Below, piece by piece: positions 33,277 through 58,317 of a stretch of DNA of 64,000 nucleotides (position 1 is its first letter; every line of letters starts with the position of its first letter). The stretch spans positions 380 to 64,379 of the forward strand of contig NZ_BMIK01000010.1 in NCBI RefSeq assembly GCF_014642075.1, given 5' to 3'. The notes beneath the pieces are model-generated. The model saw nothing but the letters and a program-made list of their open reading frames with translations, was not told the origin of the DNA and ran no database searches. Position numbers and translations under genes: made by a program. The DNA comes from Parapedobacter defluvii (GTDB lineage Bacteria > Bacteroidota > Bacteroidia > Sphingobacteriales > Sphingobacteriaceae).

Positions 33277-33290
33277 TGCTTGCTTTTTTA

Positions 33291-34544: not shown

Positions 34545-34565
34545 TTCTCCTTATGATCAATGAAT

Positions 34566-34607
34566 ACACTCACGTTTGCGGAAGCGAGCCTCCACAAACG
34601 TGAGTGT
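34566..34607. other. Long intercistronic hairpin after susD
   Basis: ACACTCACGTTTG (34566-34578) is perfectly complementary to CAAACGTGAGTGT (34595-34607). Inner bases extend pairing to about 18-19 bp including wobble pairs. It starts 5 bp after the susD stop and has no T-run, so it looks like an mRNA-stabilising or processing element, or a partial attenuator, that sets susC/susD apart from the downstream enzymes. Confidence 0.75.
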
Positions 34608-34612
34608 TCCAA

Positions 34613-36490: not shown

Positions 36491-36502
36491 ATCCAAAATC
36501 AA

Positions 36503-39500: not shown

Positions 39501-39589
39501 CGTTCCGGTTGGACCTGTGCGTGCGCCGGGCCATTCTGGAATAGCCACAGGCAAATGAGTACAAGACTCCATTTTAAATTATCCATCAT
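36503..39589 (-). CDS. SusC/RagA TonB-dependent transporter
   Basis: 1028 residues; signal peptide ends near AHAQ. A carboxypeptidase-like domain (GTVTNERNEPLVGARVVE) precedes the plug (DEVVVVGYGQQ, PLVIVDGIETNI, ILKDGAASIYGARAGNGV) and barrel. No STN domain, in keeping with LacI rather than ECF control. A LacI-type operator half-overlaps the ribosome-binding region (39592-39604). Two ATGs stand side by side (39589, 39586). It would import the oligosaccharide made by the surface GH5-like enzyme. Confidence 0.96.
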   Translation of the reverse strand: MMDNLKWSLVLICLWLFQNGPAHAQVQPERITVSGTVTNERNEPLVGARVVELGVPTNGTATNEDGGFALTVGRNATLEISSIGYATQRVDAVAGRSLAVTLTEDLAVLDEVVVVGYGQQRVATVTGSVSQIKTDKITVAPQVNVTHTLAGQLPGLISKQTSGIPGADDASLNIRGFGSPLVIVDGIETNINTLDPNQIETVSILKDGAASIYGARAGNGVLLVTTKRGKQGKPNVQVNSSFTLQGSTRVIRPATSAERAQFEVDKWLNAEKPADQVPFTEAEIQKFRDGSDPKYLNTNWFDAAIRRYAPQQNHNFSLSGGTEAVKYYGYFGANRQETILKTNGGNYDRYNFQANVEAKVTQQLSAAMDIQYFNEHRMYPSGADGVGTNNNFWRDLIYAADPSFAMELPDPNRMPYAGITYGNPIFGTNAELSGAQDKVNSITQLRGELKYDFTAVPGLNAKGVMIYRANSFDQKVVKNQERFYTYSAETGDYTYVRSSQDPMFLSRAASTDNRLVQQYSLNYDRSFLDAHNVSGMFMYEYIYERGRGFDASRGGFQSMAIEELFAGDRTTSANNSSSFANGRVSWIGRLNYSYRDRYMVETILRADASSRFAQGQRWGYFPSVSLGWNIAKENFLNKYDVFDILKLRASYGSSGYDAVANFAYLAGYRFDGTYTLGNTLYSGLIPTGLANTGLTWEQMAIYNAGLDFSLWHQKLYGEFEVFRRERKGIPGSRTQSLPTTFGAELPVENLNSQRAQGVELRLGTAGTAGEWKYDVTGNIAYSRSKWLSIDEPAYTDPDEIRLYKRSGEYTDRRFGYVFDGLFTSQEEIDNWPLSFDALNQDNASLRPGDVKYKDLNGDNVINWRDQAEIGKGAEPHWTFGLNLVLRYKRFDFSALVQGAFDYTTNVMLESAPTVLYYGNYWNNRDNNRADALLPRPAGSSTNDFYSDYRNHNTAYARLKNMSLGYELPTAILSKAGISRFRVYVAGANLYTVSSLNKYGVDPEMPEGYGVGIYYPQQFTMSVGCNLSF

Positions 39590-39591
39590 TG

Positions 39592-39604
39592 TTAAATCGG
39601 TTAA
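39592..39604. promoter_or_regulatory. LacI-type operator in front of susC
   Basis: TTAAATCGGTTAA resembles the strong operators at 42270-42288 and 43433-43452 and lies 3-15 bp upstream of the susC ATG, in the 68-bp gap after the GH78 gene. A repressor here would act as a roadblock or cover the translation start region. Confidence 0.55.
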
Positions 39605-39657
39605 TAATTGTGTAAACTCGAATGTATTTTATTCCCTTCCTATTTAATTGTTCCTGT

Positions 39658-42291: not shown

Positions 42292-42319
42292 ATTAAAAAT
42301 ATAGCTAATAATTATCTCA

Positions 42320-42365
42320 ATAAATCGGTATATCAACCTACTTAATCGGTTAACTAACTGGTTAA
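42320..42365. promoter_or_regulatory. Cluster of LacI-like sites in the GH78 promoter region
   Basis: ACTTAATCGGTTAACT (42340-42355) is a good palindromic match to the operator. ATAAATCGGTATAT (about 42319-42332) and TAACTGGTTAA (42355-42365) are weaker. They fill the 79-bp gap between the lacI stop and the GH78 start, where the promoter must lie. Confidence 0.55.
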
Positions 42366-42370
42366 AAAAA

Positions 42371-43396
42371 CTAACTACGAAACTCCAGCGAACAGGACAG
42401 CATCACCCGCTTGGGTTCATACGGCTGTTTCTTTCTGGATTTTGCCTTCCCCTTCGCATCCTCCATCTGTTCAATCAGTGAATTCACCGCTGTCCTACCG
42501 ATTTCCCCTACCGGCATGCGTGCCACGTTAATCTGTGGTGCCAACACTTTAAAAATGGGCACTTCATGGATACAAGCCATTTCAAAATCCGGCTTTATCC
42601 CCTTTTCATAAAAATACTGGAACGCCTCCAATGCCAGGATGTGGGTTGTAAAGAAGAAACCATCCACATCGGGCACCTCCGTGAAAATGTTGTTCAGCAC
42701 CCGGTGGATATTCTTTTCGTATCCGGCAAAATCGACTTCTCCGTATAGCCGCGGATCCAACTGTAGTCCCGACTCGCGCAGCGCATCCTCTACCCCTTCG
42801 CGGCGTTGGCCCATCGTTGTCAAATACGAGTTGGTGGTCAGCAACGCTATTTTTTTGCATCCCTTGTTAATCAAATGCTTAGTCAGCATGTAACAACTAT
42901 CGCGGTTATTGATGATGATGTAGCTCGCATTCAGTTCGGGAAAATAACGGTCTATGGTGGTCAATGGGTACCCCTCGTCGATCAGCCGCTGCACTTCTAC
43001 CTTCGACCGTTTGGTAGGGGCCAAAATAATCCCATCGACGCGTTTCGCTTTGAACAACCGGATAATCTCATCTTCCCGATCGATATCGGACTCCGAGCTG
43101 CTGATCATCAGTGAATATCCCTGGTTACGCGCCCTGGATTCGATTTCCCGGGCCACTTCGGAATAAAATGTATCTGAAATTGAAGGCAATATCAGGCCAA
43201 TGGTTTTGGTTTCACCCGTATTGAGGCTCCGCGCGATCATGTTGGGCTGGTAATGCAGCGATGCCGCATACGCCAGTACTTTTTCGGCCGTCGCCCGGCT
43301 GATGTTCTTCTGCTCGGCCTGCCCGGAAAGCACCCAAGATACCGTCGTCTTGGAAAGACCCAAATGTTCAGCGATATGTTTCAGCGAGGGTTTCAA
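42371..43396 (-). CDS. LacI/GalR-family transcriptional regulator
   Basis: 341 residues. The N-terminal LacI helix-turn-helix (KHIAEHLGLSKTTVSWVLSG) and hinge (YQPNMIARSLNTGETKTIGL) are followed by a periplasmic-binding-protein-like effector domain (ILPSISDTFYSEVAREIESR, DGIILAP, GVEDALRESGLQLD). Tandem operators lie in its own promoter and in front of GH78 and susC, so it most likely represses the whole locus and itself until a sugar from the glycan binds. The effector cannot be read from the sequence. Confidence 0.94.
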   Translation of the reverse strand: MKPSLKHIAEHLGLSKTTVSWVLSGQAEQKNISRATAEKVLAYAASLHYQPNMIARSLNTGETKTIGLILPSISDTFYSEVAREIESRARNQGYSLMISSSESDIDREDEIIRLFKAKRVDGIILAPTKRSKVEVQRLIDEGYPLTTIDRYFPELNASYIIINNRDSCYMLTKHLINKGCKKIALLTTNSYLTTMGQRREGVEDALRESGLQLDPRLYGEVDFAGYEKNIHRVLNNIFTEVPDVDGFFFTTHILALEAFQYFYEKGIKPDFEMACIHEVPIFKVLAPQINVARMPVGEIGRTAVNSLIEQMEDAKGKAKSRKKQPYEPKRVMLSCSLEFRS

Positions 43397-43831: not shown

Positions 43832-44863
43832 TTACTCCCTGAAAGCGTCGAGCGCCGCTGTCGGCTTCCCGGCTTGATCAAATGCGCCTAACGTATATCC
43901 CTTCCATCCTCCGTAACACTGCGGTTCCCAGTAGAATACGCCCAGCCCCTTTCCCGCCGGCAGTGTACGTACCTTTTTTATCAAGTCTTCCAGAAACAAT
44001 TTGGCGGTCGGCGCCTGGTCCCAACTCATGCCCACTTCGCAGATCATCACCTCACTTTCATAGCGATTCACCATATCGCTTATGTTGGCCAGACACTGTT
44101 CATTCCGCTGCTGCCACTCGTAGGGCGAAGGGTAAAGTGACATGCCCACCACGTCCCATTTGCCTCCATTGGCCTTCAATCCGTCGAACAGCCAGCGGAA
44201 TAGGTTGTTGTCATAGCCGTTTTGCACATGCACGATCACCTTCGTCCCGGGAAATACTGTTTTCACCGCGTCATAGCCAGCATTGCTCAGTGCAGCATAG
44301 TTAGCCATGTTGGTAGCCGCCTTTCCGGTTTCCCACAACATACCGTTGCCCGTCTCATTAGCCACCTGTACCCATTCGGGCGTGATGCCCGCCGCTTTCA
44401 GTGCGCCTAGCACGTCCGTGGTATGCTCGGATACCGCCGCCGTCAGTCCATCCAGGTCCTTCCCTTCCCACGCCGCGGGCAGTTGTTGCTGCCCCGGGTC
44501 GGCCCACGTGTCGCTGTAGTGGAAGTCAATCAGCAGCCGCATGCCCAAGCTGTGTGCGCGGCGTGCTTTCACCAGGAGGTCGTCCTTACCGCACCAGCCA
44601 TCCACAGGATTTACCCATACGCGGAGGCGGATAGCATTCACGCCCAACTGCTTTAATAGGCGCAAGCCATCCTGTTCCACCCCCGCCGCGTTGTAAAATT
44701 TGCGGCCCGCCGCTTCCATTTCGGTGATCCAGCTCACATCCGCCCCACGGGCAAATGGAGCAGCCTGGGGTTCGGGTGTTACCTCCGGATCGCTTTTACA
44801 AGCCCCTAACAGCAGTATTCCCAACAGCCAAACCACATATTTCCTGATGTTGCCTCGGTTCAT
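43832..44863 (-). CDS. GH53 arabinogalactan endo-beta-1,4-galactanase lipoprotein
   Basis: 343 residues. Lipobox LLLGAC (Cys22). The GH53 barrel is unmistakable: ARGADVSWITEMEAAGRKF, AIRLRVWVNP, LIDFHYSDTWADPG, acid/base Glu170 in VQVANETGNG, VVGMSLYP and nucleophile Glu276 in VMICEVGMSWD. It cuts beta-1,4-galactan side chains of pectin, probably at the cell surface given the lipid anchor. It ends the SusC-SusD-SusE-GH53 order that is typical of galactan utilisation loci in Bacteroidota. Confidence 0.95.
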   Translation of the reverse strand: MNRGNIRKYVVWLLGILLLGACKSDPEVTPEPQAAPFARGADVSWITEMEAAGRKFYNAAGVEQDGLRLLKQLGVNAIRLRVWVNPVDGWCGKDDLLVKARRAHSLGMRLLIDFHYSDTWADPGQQQLPAAWEGKDLDGLTAAVSEHTTDVLGALKAAGITPEWVQVANETGNGMLWETGKAATNMANYAALSNAGYDAVKTVFPGTKVIVHVQNGYDNNLFRWLFDGLKANGGKWDVVGMSLYPSPYEWQQRNEQCLANISDMVNRYESEVMICEVGMSWDQAPTAKLFLEDLIKKVRTLPAGKGLGVFYWEPQCYGGWKGYTLGAFDQAGKPTAALDAFRE

Positions 44864-44876
44864 TTTACCAACCCTT

Positions 44877-45959
44877 TTAATCCACCGTGTATCGGAATGC
44901 CTTCGGATCGCTTAAGTCCAGTGTCAAGGTATGTGTGCCCACGTGCGGATACGGGAACCCGCTGGCATCCGCCCGGTACAGTGTACATTGGCCTTCCTCA
45001 GGACCCACTCCGAAGAAAAATCCCCAGTCGCCATTTACCAGTATCTTGATGCCCCATTGCTCCGCTTCGGTGGTCGTGATGGAGGCTGTCCACACGTTGC
45101 GCCCGCTGTCGTATGTAAGCGGTGTCGCATCCGTACTCCAACCGTTAAAATCGCCCGTTACCGAAAGTGACTGAACGACGGTTTCACTCCACGTCAATGC
45201 ATTCACATCGGCTTGCAGGTATAAATAGCCCCCATTACTTGTCCAAAGGTTCCATCGGTCGGCACCGGCATGCAACCGATATTGATTACCATCTTCGGGG
45301 TACGAGCCGTATATCGTTTCGGCGGCGGCGCTCTCCTCACTTGTCAGGTAGAAATTGTACCACTGGTCCACACGCACGAAACCATCGTAGCGACCATCCT
45401 CCTCACGCGAACATAACTTCCAGGGGAACGCTGAGAAATCGTTGGTGGCCATAAATAGGTAATCGGCCGCCCCCAAAGGTAGATAAGGCGTAACAGCGAT
45501 ACGAAGCACATTACTGTATTTAGGAGCCACATTGGCAGCCAATTGCGACAGCACGCGGACGTAGAGCGGTGTACTCTCATCCGGCTCAAAGCCTAGTGCC
45601 AGCGCCAGTTCGTTGAATTTCGTATGGGTGTATGACAACGAAGCACTGCCCACCTCCTGGCTCCTCGCTACCGTAGTGAATGCTTCGTCCAACGAAAATT
45701 GCACCGTTGTCTTGATTGCGACGCTCTTCGCGTCATAACCACCCGTAAGCTGCATTTCCCCTGTATTCCAAAGCAGCTGCAGCGCCAATTCATCCTTTTG
45801 ATCTTCGCTGAGCACCACGGATTCGGTGGTTGCCGACAATTCAGCATCCGAAAATCCCGTAGCCACGACGACATCTCCAGATTTCTCACAAGCCATTGCA
45901 GCAATTGCGCAGGTGAATAGCCGTCCTGCGCGGTATATTTTTTCAATCGTTTTCATCAT
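44877..45959 (-). CDS. SusE-like surface glycan-binding lipoprotein
   Basis: 360 residues; two adjacent start Mets; lipobox IAAMAC (Cys near 24). The N-terminal SusE-type domain (LSEDQKDELALQLLWNTGEM, VQFSLDEAFTTV) and two C-terminal starch-binding-like beta domains (VTGDFNGWSTDATPLTYD) are visible. Such proteins bind the target polysaccharide next to SusC/SusD but are not catalytic. 10 bp after susD and 13 bp before GH53, so cotranscribed. Likely ligand: beta-1,4-galactan. Confidence 0.85.
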   Translation of the reverse strand: MMKTIEKIYRAGRLFTCAIAAMACEKSGDVVVATGFSDAELSATTESVVLSEDQKDELALQLLWNTGEMQLTGGYDAKSVAIKTTVQFSLDEAFTTVARSQEVGSASLSYTHTKFNELALALGFEPDESTPLYVRVLSQLAANVAPKYSNVLRIAVTPYLPLGAADYLFMATNDFSAFPWKLCSREEDGRYDGFVRVDQWYNFYLTSEESAAAETIYGSYPEDGNQYRLHAGADRWNLWTSNGGYLYLQADVNALTWSETVVQSLSVTGDFNGWSTDATPLTYDSGRNVWTASITTTEAEQWGIKILVNGDWGFFFGVGPEEGQCTLYRADASGFPYPHVGTHTLTLDLSDPKAFRYTVD

Positions 45960-45969
45960 TCATCATCGG

Positions 45970-47550
45970 TTAGTATCCAGTATGTTGTATCAGGTTCGGA
46001 TTGGCAGCCAGGTCGGTTGCCGGAATGGGATACAGATCGAACCGTGCATCCGTGGCCGACCCTTCCACCGTACCGCCTTTCCATTGCCACAAGTAATCGT
46101 CACCCGTAAACCGGCCGAAACGGATCAGATCTGTGCGGCGTACGCACTCCCAGAACAGTTCACGACCCCGTTCGGCCAGCAGGAAATCCAGCGTCAGTGC
46201 CGCTGCGCCAATGTTTCCACCGGTATTGCCGTAGGCACGCTCGCGCAGTTGGTTTACATAGCCCAGCGCTGTTGCCGCATCACCACCCGCGCCTCCCCGT
46301 ACCGTTGCTTCCGCATACATCAGGTAAACATCCGCCAGACGAAACAGCGGAAAATCGGTATTGACCAGCCCGTCATCGGTCGTGTATGACCCATCATCAT
46401 TCAGGTTGGTGTATTTTACGATGGTATACCCCTGGCTAGACGATGACGGATCATCCACATCGAGCGTCTGCCCGTCGGTCCAAAACGCGCCGCGGCGGTC
46501 CACTTCTCCCGTCGTATCCGGAAAAAGCGCCACAAACTCGCGCAGCGTGCGGATACTCTGCCAGCCGGACGTGACACCGTAGTCGGGGCTGTTCATCGAC
46601 CCGAGGATCGGACCGTTAACCAAATACGTCATCCCACCCCAGGTGGTCGTCTTTGCGGCATCCGATTGGATCGGAAAGATGATCTCGTTCTGTGTGCGGC
46701 GGTCGTTGTCGGCGTTGAAAAGCTTGCCGTAGTCGGCCTCCAAGGCGAAACCGCTGCCAATCACCTTATTACAGTATGTGATGCAGTCGGCGTTGCGTTC
46801 TGTTCCAGTATATACCGAGGCATTAAGGTAGTTTTTGGCCAGTAATGTCCAGGCTGCTGCACGGCTCGCACGGCCGTATTCATTGGCAAAGGGTTCAGGC
46901 AATATTGTTTCGATGGCCTTCAACTCCGTTTCGACATAGTCAAATAATTCCGCACGCGTTATCCGTGGCGGGAAAAAGGCGCTCACCTGGTCGTTTTCGG
47001 TTACAAACGGTACATGGCCGAAGAGATCCATCGCATGCGAATAAGCCAGTGTACGCAGGAAACGTGCCTCGGCAGCAAATACCCGGATCTCCTGCTGTTC
47101 CGCTTCGGAAAATCCTGCGATTTTATCGTCACCTGCATTGCGCAGGAACTCGTTGCAGATCGCGATGGTATAGTAAATCCGGTAATACATGGAGCTCACC
47201 CACGTGTCGGATGCGCCCCAGCGCATGTATTGGATATCTACTAGGTTATCACCGCCCGCCCAAGTATAGATCACCTCATCGGTCGGGATTTCCTGCAGGT
47301 TGAAATATGACCGCAGGTAGCCATACGCGGCCGTCGGGCTGGCCATATCCGCATTTCCGTCGCCCTTTTCATTGCCGCCCACTGCATACGATGCATAGAG
47401 TTTTGCAAGGACGGACTTGTAGTTTTCCACCGATGTATACACGGATTCTGACGTGGTTTCCACCGTGGGTAACTGATCCAACTGGCTCACGCAACTGCCG
47501 AACAATCCCAGCAGGCCGATCAAGCAAAGTATTTTTATCGTGTTCATCAT
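45970..47550 (-). CDS. SusD/RagB-family outer-membrane lipoprotein
   Basis: 526 residues. Lipobox LFGSC gives lipidated Cys near residue 20. Family features: TTSESVYTSVENYKSVLAKL, AAEARFLRTLAYSHAMDLFG, LFRLADVYLMYAEATVRGGA and LLAERGRELFWECVRRTDLI. It lies 5 bp after susC and directly upstream of the SusE-like gene. Partner to the SusC transporter of the galactan locus. Confidence 0.95.
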   Translation of the reverse strand: MMNTIKILCLIGLLGLFGSCVSQLDQLPTVETTSESVYTSVENYKSVLAKLYASYAVGGNEKGDGNADMASPTAAYGYLRSYFNLQEIPTDEVIYTWAGGDNLVDIQYMRWGASDTWVSSMYYRIYYTIAICNEFLRNAGDDKIAGFSEAEQQEIRVFAAEARFLRTLAYSHAMDLFGHVPFVTENDQVSAFFPPRITRAELFDYVETELKAIETILPEPFANEYGRASRAAAWTLLAKNYLNASVYTGTERNADCITYCNKVIGSGFALEADYGKLFNADNDRRTQNEIIFPIQSDAAKTTTWGGMTYLVNGPILGSMNSPDYGVTSGWQSIRTLREFVALFPDTTGEVDRRGAFWTDGQTLDVDDPSSSSQGYTIVKYTNLNDDGSYTTDDGLVNTDFPLFRLADVYLMYAEATVRGGAGGDAATALGYVNQLRERAYGNTGGNIGAAALTLDFLLAERGRELFWECVRRTDLIRFGRFTGDDYLWQWKGGTVEGSATDARFDLYPIPATDLAANPNLIQHTGY

Positions 47551-47555
47551 GGTCG

Positions 47556-50537
47556 TTAGAATTGAAGGTTAACACTCAGTGAATAGGTACGCGGCCGTGG
47601 ATAGAACGTGCTATCGAATCCATTCGGCATTTCAGGGTCGTTGCCGGTGTATTTGCTCTGTACAAATACGTTCTGCACAATGGCTCCCAGTCGCAGCCGG
47701 GCACTGCCGGCGATACGCCCCACGTCATAGCCCAGTGTGATGTTCTCCATCCGGAGAAACGACGCATTTTCCACGTAGTAATCCGAATAATACTGGCGTG
47801 CACGGAAACCCGTGTTGAGGAAATCGCTGTGCAGGTTGTTCAGTGCAAACGGCACATATTGCAGCGTTTCCCAGGCACCAAGATCCATTTTGGTATTGTT
47901 GAAGACGTAATTGCCCACGTTGGCGCGGAGGGTGGTACCCACTGTCCAACGTTTGTATGTGAGCTGCGTATTGAAGCCCAGGAACCACTCGGCAGCAGGC
48001 GACTCATAGCGGTAGAGATCGCTCTCATTAATGATGCCGTCACCATTCAGATCGGCATACACGTTCTCCAAGGGTTTACCCTGCTCGTCGTACACCTGCT
48101 TATATACATAAAACATGTTCGGTTCGTAACCCGTGGTCAAAATCTGGATGCCCCGCCCGCTTACCCAGGGCCCTACGTAGGAACCCACGGACTTATCGTC
48201 CTCCACCATCGAAAGGTTGGTCACCCGTGTATGCTGCTGCGTGGCGTTAAAACCCACCTCCCAGGTGAGCGTTTCGCGGCTTATGGGTGTTGCATTGACC
48301 TGGAATTCAAAACCACGGCTTTCGATGTTACCTACGTTGGTAGTGGCGGTCTGGTCGAAATTCGTACCTGCGGGCACCGATACATTGGCCAGCAGGTCGT
48401 GCGTTTTGCGTGTATAATATTCCACCGCACCGGTGATGCGGTTGCCCCACAGGCCGAAGTCTATGCCGTAGTTAAAGGCACGGGTCGTTTCCCAGCGCAG
48501 GTCATATACATAGACCGATGGGCGGAGTACCCGATAGAAGCTCTCGCCAAACCGGTATTGGGCGAAGTCATCACCCCGATTGTAAATCGACAGGTATCCG
48601 TAGTTACCGATCCCATCCTGCTGGCCTGTTACGCCATAGCTGGCACGCAGCTTCAGGTCGCTGAGGGTATGGCTGCCGCTGAGGAAATCCTCTTCAGAAA
48701 GCCGCCACGCCAGCGCCAGCGACGGAAAGGTTCCCCAGCGGTTTTCCGGGCTGAAGCGTGAGGTGCCGTCGCGGCGGATGGTTGCGGTGACCAGATAGCG
48801 CCCCCCATATTGGTAGTTGATCCGCCCGTAGACCGACAGCAGCGTATGCCGCTGGTCTGACGCCATGGCGGTTGATTGCACGTCTCCGGCCTCGTTGAAG
48901 TAAATTACCGACGGACTTTTTGCACTCCAGTACTGGAAGTCATACCCTGCGGTTACCTCCAGGGAACTATTTTCCAGCGGCGCCGTGTAGTTAAGGTACG
49001 CCGTCAGCAAGCGATTCTGCGTATTTTGTGCATATTCATTGAACGAGCCACCCACCGTATAGGCGTTGGCCGCCGATGCGGGAATACGGTTCTCTCCTTC
49101 CCCGTGTGCATAGTCATAACCCAGTGTTACATGGGCCTTCAGCGCAGGCAGGAAATGAAACTTGTAGTCGATGTCCAGGTTACCCGTGGAGCGCCCCACC
49201 CGGCTTTTGTGGGTTTCCTGTTCGAGTAAGCCTACCGGATTGAGGTTGGCACCCGTTGCCGGCACACCCGCATTGTCCAGGCTTTCGTAAAACCCGCCAA
49301 ATGCCTCACTGCCCGAATGCACCGGCTGCGTGGGGTTGAATGCCACGGCCGACCAGATAGCATCGGTATTCGCAAAGCGATTGTTATTGAGCGCTCCCTT
49401 TACGTTGAGGTTTAGCGTAAGGTGTGCGTCAAAAAACGTGGGCGACAGCGACAGGGCACCGGTTACCCGGTCGGTCCGATCCGTACGCAGCGTACCCTGT
49501 TGGTCAAAGAACCCGACCGAAGCTCGGAAGGGTACTGCGTTGGTCACGCTGCCCGATAGGCTTACGTTGTTGTCCGTACCGAAGGCCGATTGAAATACCT
49601 GCCCTACCCAGTCGGTACGCTGCCCACCTAGCAGCGTCTGTTGCGCGGCCGTACCCTGCTCTTGTATGACCTGCTCGAAGCGTTGGGGCGAAAGCATATC
49701 GGCCACCTTCTGCTGCTGTTGCATGGACAGAACCGAAGAAAAACCTATCCGCAATGTCCCGGTAGTGCCCTTTTTAGTGGTAATCAGCACCACACCGTTG
49801 GAAGCGCGCGAACCATAAATCGCCGTTGCCGAGGCGTCTTTCAGAATGGTCATGCTCTCAATGTCGTTGGGGTTAATGAGACTCATGAAATTGCTTCCGT
49901 TTCCGCTGATGCCTCCATTTTCTAGCGGCACGCCGTCCAGCACGATCAGCGGATCGTTGCTGGCGCTCAGCGATGCCCCTCCACGGATCCGGATGGTACT
50001 CCCTGCCGTCGGCGACCCGCTGTTGGACATCACTTGCACCCCCGAAGCTTTACCGTTGATCAGTTGTTCGGCCGAGCCCACCAAGCCCGCGTTAAAATCC
50101 TTGCTTGCCACGTTGGCTACCGATCCGGTCAGGTCCTTTTTGGTTTGGCTGCCGTAACCTACCACGACCACTTCTTCCAGGTCCTGGCTGCTCGGCAACA
50201 GCACCACGTCGATCTGCTGGCGGTCGGCCTCCACCGTCTGGGTGAGGTAACCGATGGAAGAAAAAACCAGCTGATGCGCACCGGCAGGTACCGTTATGCG
50301 GTATCTCCCCTCGGCATCGGTAACGGCTTGCGCCACTGTGCCCGCCACCGCGATACCCACTCCCGCCAGCGGTGTGCCTTGATCGTCGCGTACCGTGCCC
50401 TGCACAGTAAGCTGTTGCTGTTGCTGGGCCCGTACGGTTACGGGAGTCGCTGCCAGCGGAATTCCCACGGTTAAGGTGCTGGCCAGCAACGCCAACCAAT
50501 ACGTGTTTGTACGATGTTTACGTCGATATTCCCTCAT
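47556..50537 (-). CDS. SusC/RagA TonB-dependent transporter
   Basis: 993 residues; signal peptide ends near VRAQQ. A carboxypeptidase-like domain (GTVRDDQGTPLAGVGIAVAG) is followed by the plug (EEVVVVGYGSQT, PLIVLDGVPLENG, ILKDASATAIYGSRASNG) and barrel. No STN domain; control is instead by the HTCS upstream. Gap of 35 bp to the preceding glycosidase gene, so probably in its transcript. Expected cargo: galacto-oligosaccharides. Confidence 0.96.
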   Translation of the reverse strand: MREYRRKHRTNTYWLALLASTLTVGIPLAATPVTVRAQQQQQLTVQGTVRDDQGTPLAGVGIAVAGTVAQAVTDAEGRYRITVPAGAHQLVFSSIGYLTQTVEADRQQIDVVLLPSSQDLEEVVVVGYGSQTKKDLTGSVANVASKDFNAGLVGSAEQLINGKASGVQVMSNSGSPTAGSTIRIRGGASLSASNDPLIVLDGVPLENGGISGNGSNFMSLINPNDIESMTILKDASATAIYGSRASNGVVLITTKKGTTGTLRIGFSSVLSMQQQQKVADMLSPQRFEQVIQEQGTAAQQTLLGGQRTDWVGQVFQSAFGTDNNVSLSGSVTNAVPFRASVGFFDQQGTLRTDRTDRVTGALSLSPTFFDAHLTLNLNVKGALNNNRFANTDAIWSAVAFNPTQPVHSGSEAFGGFYESLDNAGVPATGANLNPVGLLEQETHKSRVGRSTGNLDIDYKFHFLPALKAHVTLGYDYAHGEGENRIPASAANAYTVGGSFNEYAQNTQNRLLTAYLNYTAPLENSSLEVTAGYDFQYWSAKSPSVIYFNEAGDVQSTAMASDQRHTLLSVYGRINYQYGGRYLVTATIRRDGTSRFSPENRWGTFPSLALAWRLSEEDFLSGSHTLSDLKLRASYGVTGQQDGIGNYGYLSIYNRGDDFAQYRFGESFYRVLRPSVYVYDLRWETTRAFNYGIDFGLWGNRITGAVEYYTRKTHDLLANVSVPAGTNFDQTATTNVGNIESRGFEFQVNATPISRETLTWEVGFNATQQHTRVTNLSMVEDDKSVGSYVGPWVSGRGIQILTTGYEPNMFYVYKQVYDEQGKPLENVYADLNGDGIINESDLYRYESPAAEWFLGFNTQLTYKRWTVGTTLRANVGNYVFNNTKMDLGAWETLQYVPFALNNLHSDFLNTGFRARQYYSDYYVENASFLRMENITLGYDVGRIAGSARLRLGAIVQNVFVQSKYTGNDPEMPNGFDSTFYPRPRTYSLSVNLQF

Positions 50538-50572: not shown

Positions 50573-53146
50573 TCATTCCAGCCATACATTGCCGATGGTC
50601 AGCGATGCATCGGACGCCACCTCTCCCAGTGTGTGCAGCACCAGTGATTCCACGGTTGCCACGTCAAAAGACCGCTGTACGGTTGGTGAAAAATAGCGTT
50701 CCAGGAAAACCGGATACGGTGCGGGCAGCAACGGGGTATCCCCTAGTTGCAGTGTACTGAGCGGAATCCTCACTAACGGTGCGCCGTCCAGTGCGATATT
50801 CGCACGGTAGGTATACCCGTCGTCCGTGGTAAGCCCCACAGACAAACTATCCAATGCATGGACTCCCGGCAGGGCGACGCACAGGTATGTGGCATCAGCC
50901 AGTCGGTCCCTACGGTTTGCTACTACATCGGCTACATAGCGTTTCCAGAAGAAGCGCACCCCGCTGTCGCGCTTAGCAAACGTATAGCGCCAAGCCTTGG
51001 GTGCCGCAGGATGATCCAACCGACTGTTTACCGTGTTGCCGCCCCATTCAGGCATGGCATACGTTTCCAGTGACTCGCGATCGGCCGCTGCGTCAAGTAA
51101 CACCACCGGATAGGCCGATGGCACTACCTGCGTGGTCCAGTAAAGCGGCTCGGGATAATCCCAGTCGAGCGGTGTCCCCGATCGATTGTCGGGGAATGTC
51201 GTTGCTTGCCCCTTGGCATATACCGTCATCGTATAACGTATCACGCCCTGTTTTACCATTTCACGTGGCAGGTTACCTTCGTACCGGTATCCGCTCCCAT
51301 GCTTCAGTAACACACGCGGGTTGTTGGCGGACCAAAACGAAACCCGATCCGTATGAAGCACGACCGAATCCGGCAATGACGGCCCCACAACGGTTGCGCG
51401 GATGGTTAATGACTCGTCGGCAGTGACCACAGTGGCAGGCGTATGCACCACGGAAAAGTGTGCCGCATGTGCTTCCGGTGCCACAAATTCACCCAGGTTA
51501 ATGGAATGCCAACGCGTATCCGCCTGCCAACGCCGCGTAGCTGCATCAACAACCTCCGGCCGGCACAATAGGTATACGCCCGGTGTCACCTGCAACGCTC
51601 CCCCTTCCGCATGGGCGGCAACCGGCACATCGTCTGCTCCCAACGGCACTACATGGAATTCCCCGGTCAGATCCGGCAATCGCAGTCGCATGGGCCACCT
51701 GTTCCAGGCGATGGTTACCGCCTCCCGGCTCAGTGAAGGTTTCGCGAACGGATCGGCTATCGGCACCGCATCGGGCATCACTTCCAAACGCCATACCCCC
51801 GGCTCCAGTTGATCCAGGAAGTACGCTCCTGTGCCCGCATAGTCCACAATCGGTGAACTCCCGCAGCCCGCAACAGTGGTCAGCTTTTCGGGCGCTACAG
51901 GCCGCTCAGTCGTATGGTTGCTATTCAAATATATCTTTTCGCTGTTCAGCACACTCAGGTCCTGCTTGTGGCTCACGAGGAAATCGCCAAACAGGGTGTC
52001 AGCCGGATAGGAACCGAATGATTCGCCCCGGCCAACCCGCCGGGTTACTTCCGCTGCTATTTTCATGCTGATGGCTTTTCCCGGCGTATATGCCAGGTTC
52101 AGGTAGTGCGTCTGGTAATCGGTGTTATAGCGTGCCAGATCGATCGGATCGTAAGCAAACTGCGTGATCCACTGAAAACCCTGGCTACGGAATGTCCGTG
52201 CCATCGCCGGATACAGATAGGTGTATGCTGCATCGGCAGGATCGAACTCATAGACGATTTTTGCTTTACTGCCAAAACCTTCCACCGAAGAAAACGGAAT
52301 CTCGTACTGGTCGAGGTAAGGCAGGAAATTACCCTTGCGGGTAAAGCCCGCTACCAGGCCGATGGGGTACCACTGATAGGTAGCTCCCTGTATAGCCGTA
52401 TTGAAATACGCCCCCACATGGTCCATGTTATGGCTTACATTATAAAACACAGGCTTCATATTTCCGGTTTGCTTGATAGCCGCCAGCATGCGGTTGATAT
52501 AGGTACGTGTTTGCGCCGGATCGCCGGTATGACAGGGTTCGTTGTTAATCTCGAAGCCCACCACATAAGGGTCATCGCGGTAAGCGAATCCGGTATAGGG
52601 GTTTTTATGCTGGATGAACTGGCTCACGTACCGTTCCTGCGCACGTACCGCATCGGGGTTGCTGTGCACGTCGCATTTATCGTAAAGGTAAGAAAACCCA
52701 CCCGTGGGCCGGTTCCGCTCGGGATAGCCGTTGCCAAAATCCGTTTGACAGGTGATCACCGTACGGATACCCCGTTTGCGCAGTTTGGAGATAAGGTAGT
52801 CCAGCAGGTCCAGATGCTCATTTTCCAGTAGGTTGCCCACGCTGTCTGTGATTTCCACATCCCATACGTGGATACGGTACGCATTGAATCCAAGGCGCGT
52901 GAAGTGGTATACATCGCGATCAATTGCTTGCTTATGGTCTTTGCCCAGGTAGTCGATTGCGCGGTAGCCGTGCGCAAAAGGCAGGCAATAATTCACCCCA
53001 TAAAACGCTGCTTCCTGTCGGGTGTCCGACCACCGCATCACCCCTTGATCGTCCACATAGATGGTAGGCACAGACGTATCCTGCGCACGCAACATGGCGA
53101 CAATAAAAAAACTGAAAAAAGCAATAACGGAAGTACATCTTATCAT
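50573..53146 (-). CDS. Large exported clan GH-A glycoside hydrolase of the galactan locus
   Basis: 857 residues from ATG 53146, the start that puts a signal peptide (FFSFFIVAMLRAQ) at the N-terminus; an ATG at 53233 would overlap the regulator-site repeats. The barrel (about 28-400) has acid/base Glu203 in FEINNEPCH and nucleophile Glu300 in IVYEFDPAD. The C-terminal half is beta-rich accessory domains. The length, context and clan fit a beta-galactosidase of the GH147 type described in pectic galactan loci, but I cannot confirm the family by eye. It would trim imported galacto-oligosaccharides to galactose. First gene downstream of the HTCS-type direct repeats. Confidence 0.75.
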   Translation of the reverse strand: MIRCTSVIAFFSFFIVAMLRAQDTSVPTIYVDDQGVMRWSDTRQEAAFYGVNYCLPFAHGYRAIDYLGKDHKQAIDRDVYHFTRLGFNAYRIHVWDVEITDSVGNLLENEHLDLLDYLISKLRKRGIRTVITCQTDFGNGYPERNRPTGGFSYLYDKCDVHSNPDAVRAQERYVSQFIQHKNPYTGFAYRDDPYVVGFEINNEPCHTGDPAQTRTYINRMLAAIKQTGNMKPVFYNVSHNMDHVGAYFNTAIQGATYQWYPIGLVAGFTRKGNFLPYLDQYEIPFSSVEGFGSKAKIVYEFDPADAAYTYLYPAMARTFRSQGFQWITQFAYDPIDLARYNTDYQTHYLNLAYTPGKAISMKIAAEVTRRVGRGESFGSYPADTLFGDFLVSHKQDLSVLNSEKIYLNSNHTTERPVAPEKLTTVAGCGSSPIVDYAGTGAYFLDQLEPGVWRLEVMPDAVPIADPFAKPSLSREAVTIAWNRWPMRLRLPDLTGEFHVVPLGADDVPVAAHAEGGALQVTPGVYLLCRPEVVDAATRRWQADTRWHSINLGEFVAPEAHAAHFSVVHTPATVVTADESLTIRATVVGPSLPDSVVLHTDRVSFWSANNPRVLLKHGSGYRYEGNLPREMVKQGVIRYTMTVYAKGQATTFPDNRSGTPLDWDYPEPLYWTTQVVPSAYPVVLLDAAADRESLETYAMPEWGGNTVNSRLDHPAAPKAWRYTFAKRDSGVRFFWKRYVADVVANRRDRLADATYLCVALPGVHALDSLSVGLTTDDGYTYRANIALDGAPLVRIPLSTLQLGDTPLLPAPYPVFLERYFSPTVQRSFDVATVESLVLHTLGEVASDASLTIGNVWLE

Positions 53147-53177: not shown

Positions 53178-53185
53178 CAAAAGTA
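53178..53185 (-). promoter_or_regulatory. -7 element of the galactan operon
   Basis: TACTTTTG on the minus strand fits TAnnTTTG and gives a leader of about 25 nt to ATG 53146. No good -33 element is present, as expected of an activator-dependent promoter. Confidence 0.6.
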
Positions 53186-53209
53186 GCATGAGGGGGGCAA
53201 GGAATGTGT

Positions 53210-53243
53210 GACAAATCGGACAGAAAACGACAAATATCGGACA
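53210..53243. promoter_or_regulatory. Direct-repeat binding site for the HTCS regulator
   Basis: GACAAATCGGACA (53210-53222) and GACAAATATCGGACA (53229-53243) on the plus strand. The CGGACA cores are exactly 21 bp apart, i.e. on the same DNA face. The site starts 25 bp upstream of the -7 element of the galactan operon and lies just after the HTCS gene. AraC-type DNA-binding domains commonly bind such direct repeats. Confidence 0.65.
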
Positions 53244-53260: not shown

Positions 53261-56200
53261 CTATGATTCCCGTTCGGACGCAAATTCCCGTGGGGTCCGC
53301 CCAAAAGCAGCCTGGAAACATTTGGAAAAATATGAGGGATTGGAAAAGCCCACCATGTACATCACTTCGGCCACGGTAAACTTATGCTGCCCCAGTAACA
53401 TGGCGGCTTTCTTCATCCGGATGGACCGGATGTACTCCACAGGGGTGAGACCGGTGAGGTGCTTCACCTTCCGGTAAAGCTGCTTGGTGCCGGTATCAAG
53501 CTGATCGCTTAACGCCTGAACGTTCAGTTCCGGATCGTCGATCTGATCTTCGATGATGCGTGTCACCTCTACGAGAAACTGTTCATCCGGCGATACCGCC
53601 GTAGGTATTTGCGGTGTCGCGATTGCACCAACGCGCAGCTTGCGGTCGGTTGCCTGCTTTTTTTCGATCAGCTGCACGATGCGCGAACGCAGGATAGCCA
53701 CGTCAAACGGTTTCGCCATGAAGACATCGATTCCTCTGCCGATACTATCCAGTTCCGTCTGCTTGTCGTCCTTCGCCGTCAGCAGGATAATGGCTACATC
53801 AACCAACGGCACATGGCTGCGGATCTGGCGGCTCATCTCCAATCCATCCATCAATGGCATCATCGCATCTGCGATGACCACATCGGGTTTCCACTCCATG
53901 CACTGCCGTAGCCCGTCCTTTCCATCGTGGGCCACCCGTACGTCATAATTAGCCAACAGCAGCTGTGCCAAAAATTCGGTGATCTCCCGGTTATCGTCCA
54001 CGACGAGAATCCGGTGTCTTTCCGCTGTGGCACCCGATGTTTCGGCGCCTCTCTCCCCAGCGCCGGCAGGCGGCTGAATGCCCGCCGCAACAGGCAGCCC
54101 AATGCGTACCGAGGTACCCTTTCCTTCCGTCGCCGTTATGGTCATCGAGCCTCCGTGCTGTTCGGCATACTGTTTAGCCAGATACAACCCGATACCCGAA
54201 CCGGCATGCCGGTTAGTTGTATTTGCCGCCCGGTAAAACCGCTCAAACACATACGGCAGGTCTTTTTCCGGGACACCGATACCCGTGTCGCTGACAGTGA
54301 TGATTATCTCTCCCTGCTCGGCAGCCAGTGATACCATGATGCGGTCGCCGGCATGTGTATACTTAAATGCATTGGCCAATACATTATTCAGGACCGACCG
54401 GATCTTCACGACATCAGCCATTCCCCGCAGTTCCTCCAGCTCGGTTTTCAGGGTATAGGTGCGGCCCAGCGTGTCGGCTGACCCCTGAAATGCGGCAAAC
54501 ACATTCCTTACCAACGACACCCATTCCACATCAGACCGCATGAGCCCTTCGTCGCCCGCCCCTTCCAACCGGTTAAACTCCATCACTTGCTGGATCAGCG
54601 TATTCAGTTGCAGGGCATTGCGTTGTATACCTTCCAATTGCGGATGAATACCCTTATGCCTCGCATCCATCAGGAGTTGACTGGTCGGGCCGAGAATGAG
54701 GCTCAATGGCGTCTTGAATTCGTGGGAAACATCCGTAAAGAAATTGATTTTCAGATTGGTCAACTCCAGTGTTTTCTGCTTTTCGATGCGTTCGATTTTC
54801 AGGTTATGCCGTACGCGGAAAAAGTTGACGACCCATACGATCAGCCCGATTGCCAGTGCCAGGTAGATAGCCTGGGCAGCCCCGGTCTCATACCAGGGAG
54901 GCCGGATGCGCACGGTAAACCGAAGCGGTGCACCTGTGGGGTCACCCGAGAGATCCAGCTTCCGTACAGCCAGTTGGTAGGTACCCGGTTGGAGGTTGGT
55001 ATATGTCAACTGATTAGACGCGCGATCCATCAATACCCATTCGGCATCTACACCTTCCATTTTATACAAAAATTGTTTGCTTTCATCCGGCGCATACACA
55101 AAGTCAGCAAAGCGGAATACGAGGTTGTTTTGATCGTGTGTCAACTCCATATGGTCGCGGTAGCGGATATTGCTCCCCGAGGTGCCTACCGGACGGTCAT
55201 TGGCCAGCAATGCGGTAAATGACAGTGTGGCCGCCGCCGTTGCGGCATGCGGCGCATCCGCGGGTAACGCAGTGATACTGTTTACCGCCCCAAGCAATAC
55301 CTGGCTACCCGCCGCATCGTAAAAGGCCGCCGTGAAATCCGACTCTCCCTTGATGCGTTTCACTTCGAGCGTACCACGGTCCAGTGTCCAGAGCGCACCG
55401 GAAGTTGAAATCCAAATGTGCGCTCCCACCTGTTCCATACACAGGATTTCACCGGTACCGAACGTACTAATAGGTACTGTTTGGCAGGTTCCATGCTGCG
55501 GGTCCAAGCGGTAAACCGCATTGTCTCCCCCCACCCAAACAATTCCCTCGGCATCCTGCATCATATAGGTCGGCAATTGGATCGGTCGTCCGGCGCCGTC
55601 CGTTACGGCACTCACCCGGTAGTTGTCGGGCTGGATACGGTGCAGCCCCTTCTTATAGACGAGTGCCCAGATATCCCCCTTGACATCCTGAAACAATTGG
55701 TTCACGAAATCACCCGCTAGCCCATCTGCTGCGGTCAACTGATGCTGCGCAATGTAATCGCCGGATGCCGCCATCAGGCGTTGCTTATCGACGACGAAGA
55801 TTCCGCCGAGGTAAGTAGCAATCCATAACCGCCGGTTTCGGTCTTCAAACAAATCGTACGCCCAGTTGGCATTTGCCGTCCGCGTTTGGTTGACGATCGT
55901 GTAGCGGTCAAAACCGTGTGTTGCCTCGTTGTACCGGTTTACGCTACCATCGGTGGCAATCCAAATCTGCCGGTCAATATCTTCGTAGATATCACGGATG
56001 CGATTGTGCGACAGCGGATAACGGGAGTCACCCATGCGGTACCATGCCGGTGCCGTTCGCCTAGCACCGAGGGTATCCGTACGGATGATTCCATTGGTGC
56101 CACCCAGCCAATAACGGCCGCGCGAATCGCGGAGGATGTTATAGAAGCGATTCCCCTCGCCTATTCCGGTAACCTCGTAAATCGGGATGGTTTGGAATAC

Positions 56201-57178
56201 CGGACGGCCGCTTGTTACGGAGGTACCATAGTCTGTACCAAACCACCAATTGCCTTCGCGGTCGGTGAAGATGGCCCAAACGATGTTGTTGGCAAGCGAT
56301 CTGTCGTTGCGGGCGTCGTGCACCACCGTTACTGCGGACTGCTTACCCGGATCATAAATGTATATCCCTGCATCTGTTCCCGCCAATAGCATCCCATGGC
56401 GGTCCATGGCAAGCGATTTGACAGACTGGTTGTGAAGGGGAATGGCCTCCGTTGTCTCCGTGGTAGTTGGGTCATATCGGTAAAGCGCACCCTCGGCCCC
56501 TACCCATACCGTGCCTTCCGCCGTGTCTACCCATAGTGAATTGACAAAAAAATTGCTCCGGCTATGCTGAGTGGATAAGCTAACAGCACCGATTGATTGC
56601 ACGCCATCCTGCTTTCGGTATAAGCCATTATACGTGCCGATGTATAAATCGCTTTCCAGTTTTGCCAATGCATATACGGTCAGTTTCGGTTGGTCGTCGT
56701 TGGTCGCATCACCGGTGAAAGACTCCAGTCGTTTGCTGTCTAGCTCATAACGGTACAAACCCTTAAGCGAACCGATCCACAGGTCGTTGTCGTCCAGCAG
56801 AAGTGTCCGCACATCCGATGGAAATGACACAGTGCTTGGCAGGTACCTATCGCTTTGGTAGTCGTAAAACAATACACCGTAGTCGGTTCCCAAACACAGC
56901 AGGCGGCTGTTCAATACCACGATGTTATATACATATGTGTTTGTACTGTCGTTGCGACCGTGATGTGCCTGGGTTACGTAACCATCGTAGCTTACCAAGC
57001 CTTTGTTAGTGCCAAACCACATCATGCCCAGGCTATCCTGCGCGAATGCACTCACGGTAGTCGCCCCGGCCCCGGCAATTACGTTTTGGAAAGACCGGTA
57101 ACCCAACGGCTGTGTCAGGCCGGGAACTGTCTGTAGTAATCCCCAAATCAAGAAAATCAACCGTCTGTTCAGTTCCAT
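53261..57178 (-). CDS. Hybrid two-component system (HTCS) sensor/regulator
   Basis: 1305 residues; signal peptide ends near GLTQ. Two seven-bladed propellers of Reg_prop repeats (about 25-670) and a Y_Y_Y domain (about 675-740; YKMEGVDAEWVLMDRASN) form the periplasmic sensor. One membrane segment is near 769 (IYLALAIGLIVWVVNFF). The histidine kinase has the H-box DVSHEFKTPLSL (His near 818) and an ATPase domain with SDTGIGVPEKDL and AGSGIGLYLAKQ. The receiver domain has phosphoacceptor Asp near 1104 (VVIADAMMPLMDG). The C-terminal AraC helix-turn-helix includes VAEVMYMVGFSNPSYFSKCF. HTCS proteins bind a released oligosaccharide in the periplasm and activate their utilisation locus. Confidence 0.96.
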   Translation of the reverse strand: MELNRRLIFLIWGLLQTVPGLTQPLGYRSFQNVIAGAGATTVSAFAQDSLGMMWFGTNKGLVSYDGYVTQAHHGRNDSTNTYVYNIVVLNSRLLCLGTDYGVLFYDYQSDRYLPSTVSFPSDVRTLLLDDNDLWIGSLKGLYRYELDSKRLESFTGDATNDDQPKLTVYALAKLESDLYIGTYNGLYRKQDGVQSIGAVSLSTQHSRSNFFVNSLWVDTAEGTVWVGAEGALYRYDPTTTETTEAIPLHNQSVKSLAMDRHGMLLAGTDAGIYIYDPGKQSAVTVVHDARNDRSLANNIVWAIFTDREGNWWFGTDYGTSVTSGRPVFQTIPIYEVTGIGEGNRFYNILRDSRGRYWLGGTNGIIRTDTLGARRTAPAWYRMGDSRYPLSHNRIRDIYEDIDRQIWIATDGSVNRYNEATHGFDRYTIVNQTRTANANWAYDLFEDRNRRLWIATYLGGIFVVDKQRLMAASGDYIAQHQLTAADGLAGDFVNQLFQDVKGDIWALVYKKGLHRIQPDNYRVSAVTDGAGRPIQLPTYMMQDAEGIVWVGGDNAVYRLDPQHGTCQTVPISTFGTGEILCMEQVGAHIWISTSGALWTLDRGTLEVKRIKGESDFTAAFYDAAGSQVLLGAVNSITALPADAPHAATAAATLSFTALLANDRPVGTSGSNIRYRDHMELTHDQNNLVFRFADFVYAPDESKQFLYKMEGVDAEWVLMDRASNQLTYTNLQPGTYQLAVRKLDLSGDPTGAPLRFTVRIRPPWYETGAAQAIYLALAIGLIVWVVNFFRVRHNLKIERIEKQKTLELTNLKINFFTDVSHEFKTPLSLILGPTSQLLMDARHKGIHPQLEGIQRNALQLNTLIQQVMEFNRLEGAGDEGLMRSDVEWVSLVRNVFAAFQGSADTLGRTYTLKTELEELRGMADVVKIRSVLNNVLANAFKYTHAGDRIMVSLAAEQGEIIITVSDTGIGVPEKDLPYVFERFYRAANTTNRHAGSGIGLYLAKQYAEQHGGSMTITATEGKGTSVRIGLPVAAGIQPPAGAGERGAETSGATAERHRILVVDDNREITEFLAQLLLANYDVRVAHDGKDGLRQCMEWKPDVVIADAMMPLMDGLEMSRQIRSHVPLVDVAIILLTAKDDKQTELDSIGRGIDVFMAKPFDVAILRSRIVQLIEKKQATDRKLRVGAIATPQIPTAVSPDEQFLVEVTRIIEDQIDDPELNVQALSDQLDTGTKQLYRKVKHLTGLTPVEYIRSIRMKKAAMLLGQHKFTVAEVMYMVGFSNPSYFSKCFQAAFGRTPREFASERES

Positions 57179-57399: not shown

Positions 57400-58317
57400 A
57401 TGAAAAAATTTTGCACGATGATAATCGGGTGCCTGCTGCTGATGCAGGCACCCGTATGGGCGGGGACAAACGATATGCCCCTGCTCCGACCCAATGATCT
57501 GGTGGTGTGCGGGGACGACAAAATCCAAGTTTATGATGACGCGGCAGCACGCCGTGGAGAAGCGATCCTGACCTGGTCCTGGCAGGCCAACGAGGCGAAA
57601 GGTCAGCTGCCCGAGGAATATTTCGGCATGCTTCGTTCGCTGGATGACTGCAAGCCCGTTCGCGGTAATACGCAGTTGCTTGTCACCTCCTCATCGGGCG
57701 CAACGTTGCTGCTGGATGTAGCCACCAAACGGATACTGTTTTATGCCAAAACGCCTATGGCACATTCGGCCGACCTGCTGCCGGGAGGCTTCGTCGCCGT
57801 AGTCAACTCGACGCACACTGCTGGTAACAGCCTGGAACTGTATGATGGGCGTATACCGGAAAAGGTGCTTTATAAAGATACGCTGTATTCCGGGCATGGA
57901 GCCGTGTGGGTAACCGAGCAGCAGGAACTTTTCGCCCTCGGTTTCGACAGCCTGCTGGTATACCGGCTGCAAGATGTGCGCACTGCAACGCCACGGCTGG
58001 AAAAAGTCCGCGTCTTTCCCCTACCCGATGAAGGCGGACATGAGCTGTCGCTCACATCGTCAAACCAACTGTTGGTGAGTACCCACCATCATGTCTGGCT
58101 GATGGACATGCAAACGGGCCGATTCACTCCATTAGAGCCGCTAAAAGACCATGCAAACATCAAGTCGGCCAACTACGATGCCGCAACCGGCGCACTAGTC
58201 TATACCATTGCCGAGGAAAGCTGGTGGACGCACCATGTTTACGGAGTGAACCCCGATTTCCGCATCGAGATACCCGATATGCGGGCATATAAGGTACGCG
58301 TGGTGCCGAAGCCCTGA
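57400..58317 (+). CDS. Exported DUF6528-like beta-propeller protein
   Basis: 305 residues with a signal peptide (MKKFCTMIIGCLLLMQAPVW). The body shows propeller-type strands and the order I associate with DUF6528: LVVCGDDKIQVYD, LDDCKPVRGN, LVTSSSGATLLLDVATKRIL, AHSADLLPGGFVAVV, SGHGAVWV. The function is unknown; homologues are often found near sugar-utilisation genes in Bacteroidota and other bacteria. Divergent from the HTCS gene (221-bp spacer) but read from its own promoter, so membership of the galactan locus is uncertain. Confidence 0.75.
   Translation: MKKFCTMIIGCLLLMQAPVWAGTNDMPLLRPNDLVVCGDDKIQVYDDAAARRGEAILTWSWQANEAKGQLPEEYFGMLRSLDDCKPVRGNTQLLVTSSSGATLLLDVATKRILFYAKTPMAHSADLLPGGFVAVVNSTHTAGNSLELYDGRIPEKVLYKDTLYSGHGAVWVTEQQELFALGFDSLLVYRLQDVRTATPRLEKVRVFPLPDEGGHELSLTSSNQLLVSTHHHVWLMDMQTGRFTPLEPLKDHANIKSANYDAATGALVYTIAEESWWTHHVYGVNPDFRIEIPDMRAYKVRVVPKP

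Follow-up and report, generated by a model that had tools for sequence, protein, structure and literature searches.

The window, that is the whole stretch of 64,000 nucleotides of Parapedobacter defluvii DNA analysed here, carries the gene of an HTCS regulator and, on the same strand, genes for a glycoside-hydrolase-like (GH) protein, for SusC-, SusD- and SusE-like proteins and for a GH53 protein. A direct repeat lies between the regulator and the GH gene. The relevant features are the following:

53261..57178, minus strand: HTCS regulator, 1305 aa, with Reg_prop propeller, Y_Y_Y, HisKA, HATPase, REC and AraC-type HTH
53792..53803, minus strand: REC alpha3-beta4 loop, HTCS residues 1126-1129, VDVA replacing the usual S/C-H-I-P
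53229..53243, minus strand: predicted operator box 1 (promoter-distal), TGTCCGATATTTGTC, from sequence, pattern scan and ortholog comparison
53208..53222, minus strand: predicted operator box 2 (the one nearer the promoter), TGTCCGATTTGTCAC, spaced 21 bp from box 1, from sequence, pattern scan and orthologs
53178..53185, minus strand: -7 promoter element TACTTTTG (TAnnTTTG), with the first base of box 2 at a distance of 37 bp
53144..53146, minus strand: probable ATG of the first operon gene, judged by a signal-peptide-like start and alignments of relatives
50573..53146, minus strand: glycoside-hydrolase-like protein, 857 aa, first gene of the presumed operon (Pfam Cellulase 23.0 bits, cut-off 23.5)
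47556..50537, minus strand: SusC-like TonB-dependent transporter (domain search)
45970..47550, minus strand: SusD-like protein
44877..45959, minus strand: SusE-like protein
43832..44863, minus strand: GH53 protein (endo-galactanase family)

The box pair is situated downstream of the HTCS stop codon and ahead of the probable ATG (53146) of the GH gene, and the genes GH-susC-susD-susE-GH53 are all co-oriented. The repeat therefore falls into the promoter region of this run, which we presume to be one operon, and not into that of the HTCS gene. Autoregulation of the HTCS through such a repeat was considered and rejected, since the upstream region of the HTCS gene itself holds no such pair. A DUF6528 gene (57400-58317 of the window) is divergent from the HTCS gene. 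Further away, positions 30871-43396 are occupied by a second glycan cluster with genes for a LacI-type regulator, an alpha-L-rhamnosidase, SusC/SusD and GH5-like and GH2 proteins.

The first-pass annotation had described the site as a repeat of GACAAAT(AT)CGGACA whose CGGACA cores are two helical turns apart. The cores are real: on the plus strand CGGACA (TGTCCG on the other strand) is found at 53217-53222 and again, exactly 21 bp further on, at 53238-53243. The longer repeat holds only in part, for the GACAAAT portions are 19 bp apart because box 1 contains two additional bases. The second halves of the window boxes are 2 bp out of register, which counts against reading them as an operator; the longer box TGTCC(G/A)AT(T/A)TGTG stands in the 21-bp register in most orthologs. 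Similarly, the -7 element had been recognized correctly (53185-53178), but the 25 bp given for its distance needs a slight correction, as 24 nt separate it from a 13-bp box 2 (53222-53210). TACTTTTG agrees with TAnnTTTG, the -7 element that together with TTTG at -33 forms the consensus of primary-sigma promoters in Bacteroidota (PMC7366714; here as below, citations refer to parts of the source). The annotated absence of a -33 element was borne out, as the window promoter has neither TTTG nor TTG when spacers of 17 to 21 nt are considered. The site is also next to the HTCS gene as described, namely 3' of it and upstream of the GH gene.

A pattern built from the known site and its orthologs, TGTCCGATNTNTG-N8-TGTCCGATNTNTG, has a single match in the window (53210-53243, minus strand, one mismatch) and none in 100 dinucleotide shuffles. 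As for other sites in the window, there is one match only, with three mismatches and within susC, which is chance level. The variant TGTCCGAT-N13-TGTCCGAT occurs once without mismatch in the 5.8-Mb genome. The short CGGACA cores alone prove little, because CGGACA-N15-CGGACA with at most one mismatch is about as frequent in the genome as its reversed control (46 versus 45 matches). A genome scan for the box pair with up to two mismatches gave 15 matches versus 2 for the reversed control, an excess that partly consists of a class of palindromes. Searching the contigs of the genome for related loci returned four distant kinase matches only.

We then compared orthologous loci. The GH gene is present in 59 of 300 other genomes of the same family (60 of 301 with the window's own). 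Among the 60 genomes holding it, 29 loci were read in addition to the window; a further locus, L098, was taken from G063. The gene order HTCS-GH-susC is found in 18 of the 29 loci, and all 18 carry the box pair at 21 bp, with a distance from box 2 to the -7 element of 37 bp in 17 and 38 bp in one. In the remaining 11 loci the GH gene is more distant, and the flank first examined contains no HTCS. Nine of these 11 and one further locus (together L089-L098, all from other genera) were examined over a longer stretch; none of the ten has the TGTCC pair, and a different HTCS or none stands near their GH gene. The gap before susC in nine of these ten loci shows a 21-bp repeat in two (L090 and L092) and none in the other seven among the matches listed; six gaps have no repeat at lags 15-29, and for L089 the four matches listed are 27-28 bp repeats only. 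L092 has CGATAGCACAAA twice, 21 bp apart, between HTCS and susC, and the copy in L090 is looser. In both, which come from other genera, the operon is of the galactan type and the HTCS beside it is a different one in divergent orientation.

In a second family, an HTCS search yielded 26 places in 22 of 201 genomes, 13 of which have a GH or SusC match directly after the HTCS gene. Twelve of the 13 belong to the HTCS lineage of the window, and the pair is found at 21 and 37 bp in all 12, although GGTC replaces TGTC in box 2 in three of them. The thirteenth locus, L268, is of a different HTCS lineage; its boxes read TGTTAC and keep the spacings of 21 and 37 bp. Four HTCSs of the same lineage (L249, L250, L251, L260), whose examined flank shows neither a GH nor a SusC match, do not have the site within the 700 nt covered. 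L246 is the same locus as L099 and was counted once. In searches with the whole HTCS or the sensor, two or three candidates were scored for each genome, and their counts are therefore lower bounds (at least 2 of 296 and at least 4 of 295 genomes). Taken together, the set comprises 31 orthologous loci in two families (the window, 18 and 12), where the pair is always 21 bp apart and box 2 lies 37 bp from the -7 element in 30 and 38 bp in one. The repeat is thus conserved upstream of orthologous operons, in 18 of 18 same-family and 12 of 13 second-family loci, and the first-pass prediction of an HTCS binding site gains support from this comparison of sequences.

One alignment used for box conservation contained rows chosen by a pattern that requires TGTC, and the conservation it displays is partly forced by this selection. 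When 20 loci (11 without near-duplicates) were anchored by the -7 element only, with no box demanded, and self-matches were computed for lags 12-35 at all offsets, the best one was again at lag 21 and offset 37 (9.4 of 12). In the same anchoring, the information content per position is 1.38 and 1.18 bits for the boxes and 1.03 bits for the spacer, compared to 0.27 bits in the upstream and 0.44 bits in the downstream flank. In the -33 region of the 20 loci (spacers of 17-21 nt), TTTG occurs in one (spacer 20) and TTG only in two more (spacers 20 and 21).

Operators of this type have been predicted before. Ravcheev et al. proposed motifs for 16 of the 36 HTCSs of B. thetaiotaomicron in 2013 and none for the other 20; all were direct repeats with an average distance of 21 bp, interpreted as sites for dimers that contact one DNA face at positions two helical turns apart (PMC3878776). 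The statement that such sites are rarely defined for this regulator class was thus too strong. The Bacteroides operators share with ours the two boxes about 21 bp apart (exactly 21 bp here) and the position near HTCS genes and upstream of PUL operons, as seen here next to the HTCS gene and ahead of the SusC/SusD gene run. They differ in that the present loci come from other families and use the box given above. A distance from the repeat to the promoter or its -7 element was not found in the parts of PMC3878776 considered here, and we found no printed rule tying HTCS repeats to the -7 element in the open-access literature. Binding of HTCS fragments to PUL promoters has been demonstrated by EMSA for BT0366 (PMC5061871) and for BT4124 and BT4663 (PMC11253607).

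GH53, SusC/D/E-like genes and an HTCS occur together in the window as in the pectic-galactan PUL BT4667-BT4673 of B. thetaiotaomicron (PMC5238430, PMC3243724), whose regulon HTCS_Pga (BT4673, pectic galactan) is among those named in PMC3878776. The first gene is different, as the published PUL has a GH2 (PMC5238430) and the window a GH5-like protein of 857 aa. On pectic galactan, a BT4673 mutant grew to 21.6% of the density of the wild type (PMC3243724), which fits an activator.

The regulator itself unites a propeller sensor, HisKA, HATPase, REC and an AraC-type HTH in one chain, as is characteristic of HTCSs, and has an intact HisKA His819 and REC Asp1104. The closest solved structures to its sensor are the HTCS-type sensors 3ott/3va6 (E 1.3e-204), which we take to be BT4673. 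One feature is unusual, namely the REC alpha3-beta4 loop, where the window HTCS does not have the S/C-H-I-P motif. Neither the window protein nor any of the 19 orthologs scored has the His of this lock motif (the orthologs have T in 14, I in 4, S in 1). Of the other HTCSs, 116 allowed scoring and 10 did not, and the His is there in 106 of the 116. In the second family, all 16 close HTCSs (L245-L260) lack it and all 10 more distant ones (L261-L270) have it; the loops of L248, L249, L266 and L269 were read off the sequence by eye. The Asp of DBD helix 6 and the Lys of the recognition helix, whose columns were placed by the 39-residue distance D1344-K1383 of BT4124, are retained in the window protein and the 19 orthologs. 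AlphaFold models of REC-DBD had a pTM of 0.50 for the window protein and 0.54 for an S/CHIP control and did not discriminate between a locked and an unlocked state. Because the His is absent from the lineage, the sequences predict that DNA binding is less tightly locked in the HTCS lineage of the window.

The lock has been described for other HTCSs: phosphorylation improves the binding of BT4124 and BT4663 response-regulator fragments to susCD promoters, and motif changes in both allow DNA binding without phosphorylation (PMC11253607). BT2391, with a non-consensus motif, is a repressing HTCS (PMC11253607). It could accordingly be argued that the window HTCS, with VDVA in place of S/CHIP and the His missing across the orthologs scored in both families, binds independently of phosphorylation and perhaps acts as a repressor. 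We regard this as unlikely. His819 and Asp1104 are intact, growth is reduced in the mutant lacking BT4673, which is the HTCS of the analogous galactan PUL, and box 2 sits at a fixed distance just upstream of a core promoter whose -33 element is missing, as would fit an activator. This alternative shares the assignment of the boxes as the operator of the HTCS and departs from ours in the mode of action.

Another possibility is that the boxes are bound by a different factor, a reader of the TGTCCGATATCGAACA-type palindromes of the genome. Such double palindromes, with the same first letters and two copies 21 bp apart, are located at C4:235279 (L077:1780-1819) and C7:41100 (L078:1601-1637), the former upstream of an FtsX/MacB-type permease gene. 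Since TGTCCGAT words form part of double palindromes in this genome, another factor could recognize a portion of a box. Furthermore, an extra GGACA/TGTCC word is present up to 45 bp upstream of box 1 in 8 of the 31 loci (L012, L013, L014, L015, L018, L019, L023, L252), and in L019 it forms the palindrome TGTCCAAATTGGACA; these words possibly represent a third contact or the site of another factor. However, neither box completes a palindrome in any of the 31 loci, for which reason a reading of the boxes themselves as palindromes was rejected, and the box pair follows one HTCS lineage through two families. Recognition by such a factor in place of the HTCS is thus very improbable. That the repeat arose by chance and has no function is hardly credible at all, for even though the words are short and the cores no commoner than their reversed control, both spacings are fixed in 31 loci while the flanks diverge.

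We also examined whether the geometry recurs at promoters of other HTCSs, regardless of the letters of the boxes. Non-orthologous HTCS loci, recognized by their lower identity, comprised 86 of the same family (80 fetched plus six from the own genome) and 40 of other families. For the former, 80 of 82 picks among the matches listed, long open frames in order of E-value, were fetched, leaving out window orthologs, short frames, one duplicate and one galactan-type HTCS (L091); in L072, an own-genome locus of this set, the response regulator is a separate frame. The latter set covers 40 of the 41 places found in genomes other than that of the window. As controls served 20 hand-chosen stretches, each 20 kb long and set at round coordinates, from ten genomes, unscreened for HTCSs. 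All TAnnTTTG in promoter-side gaps of 60-800 bp were aligned, requiring 75 nt upstream of the -7 element. Sites with over 60% identity were removed, which reduced the same-family set from 109 to 108. For each lag and offset, the match between the upstream and the downstream box was then scored.

For the 108 same-family sites, the highest z, 4.9, is found at lag 21 and offset 32, a modest result given that the maximum of 300 permutations was 4.6. In the other-family set (46 sites), the peak is at lag 21 and offset 42 (z 4.9, permutation maximum 4.6), and offset 37 reaches 4.4. For the union of 154 TAnnTTTG sites in 126 other HTCS loci, the top cell is lag 21, offset 37, with a z of 6.1 and again a permutation maximum of 4.6; this cell has a z of 1.4 in the control (64 sites). 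The best control cell, at lag 15, has a z of 4.1 and thereby exceeds the 95% limit of the control permutations (3.6), so that values near 4 are not decisive alone. Looking at SusC promoter regions near other HTCSs, TAnnTTTG is present in 18 of 46. Eight of these 18 show a self-match of at least 10 of 14 at lag 21 or 22 and offset 31-40, compared to none at lags 14-20 and 23-31; with a laxer -7 element, TnnnTTTG, one SusC region also scores at lag 29. The letters of the boxes vary with the HTCS locus, and the spacing of 21-22 bp recurs.

Among the six other HTCS-type loci in the own genome, only L071 combines a repeat (lag 22) with a fitting TAnnTTTG (offset 36-37). L072 and L074 have repeats at lags 21 and 20, respectively, in regions without TAnnTTTG, and a 20-22 bp repeat was not clearly seen at L073, L075 and L076. 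L072 additionally contains, at 12797-12933, a cluster of direct and inverted GTGAGTCCGA-like repeats near the HTCS-type gene with the separate response-regulator frame. From the sequences compared, the register of 37 bp between box 2 and the -7 element looks general among HTCS promoters.

We conclude that the two boxes are very probably the operator of the adjacent HTCS, judging by their conservation and position, and that the HTCS is the probable protein binding both of them. This reading is well supported and belongs to a kind already described. We are less sure of the mode of action. An HTCS dimer would set one of its AraC-type DNA-binding domains on each box, and the spacing of 21 bp would place both domains on one face of the helix. 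With 37 bp to the -7 element, box 2 would span the missing -33 region and the DNA immediately before it. Contact of the periplasmic sensor with a galactan fragment would lead to phosphorylation of REC, which would let both domains bind and assume the -33 contact. The proximal domain would then sit where sigma would contact -33 and aid the polymerase at a weak promoter, so that the housekeeping sigma is recruited to the GH-susC-susD-susE-GH53 operon in a class-II-like activation. Accordingly we infer activation rather than repression; galactan would be the inducing signal and transcription would start a few bases after 53178. The proposed mode resembles activation by AraC. At araBAD of E. coli, AraC-type domains bind the direct half-sites araI1 and araI2, which are about 21 bp apart and the proximal of which touches the -35 region; the window regulator has a different architecture and the promoter a different sigma factor (-7 TAnnTTTG).

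The comparison with other HTCS loci leads us to a broader proposal, to which we give roughly even chances. HTCS promoters of Bacteroidota may share a blueprint that is independent of the letters, with boxes 21-22 bp apart and the start of the proximal box about 37 bp before TAnnTTTG. The dimer would replace the missing -33 contact, and lineages would change only the letters. In the galactan lineage, the loss of S/CHIP would leave the dimer poised on the operator before the signal arrives.

HTCSs are a major class of regulators of glycan use in Bacteroides (PMC11253607). What seems to go beyond the predicted repeats of 2013, as far as the parts of PMC3878776 considered here extend, is the apparently general register of 37 bp and an HTCS lineage without the His of the REC-DBD lock. 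The value of the present locus lies in its being a very clean case, with a fixed 37-bp register and a regulator lineage that does without the usual lock. If the fixed distance from the repeat to the -7 element is true, operators could be found by their geometry without knowledge of the letters, and the mode of activation becomes testable. The lineage lacking the S/CHIP His would offer a natural test of the published model of the REC-DBD lock.
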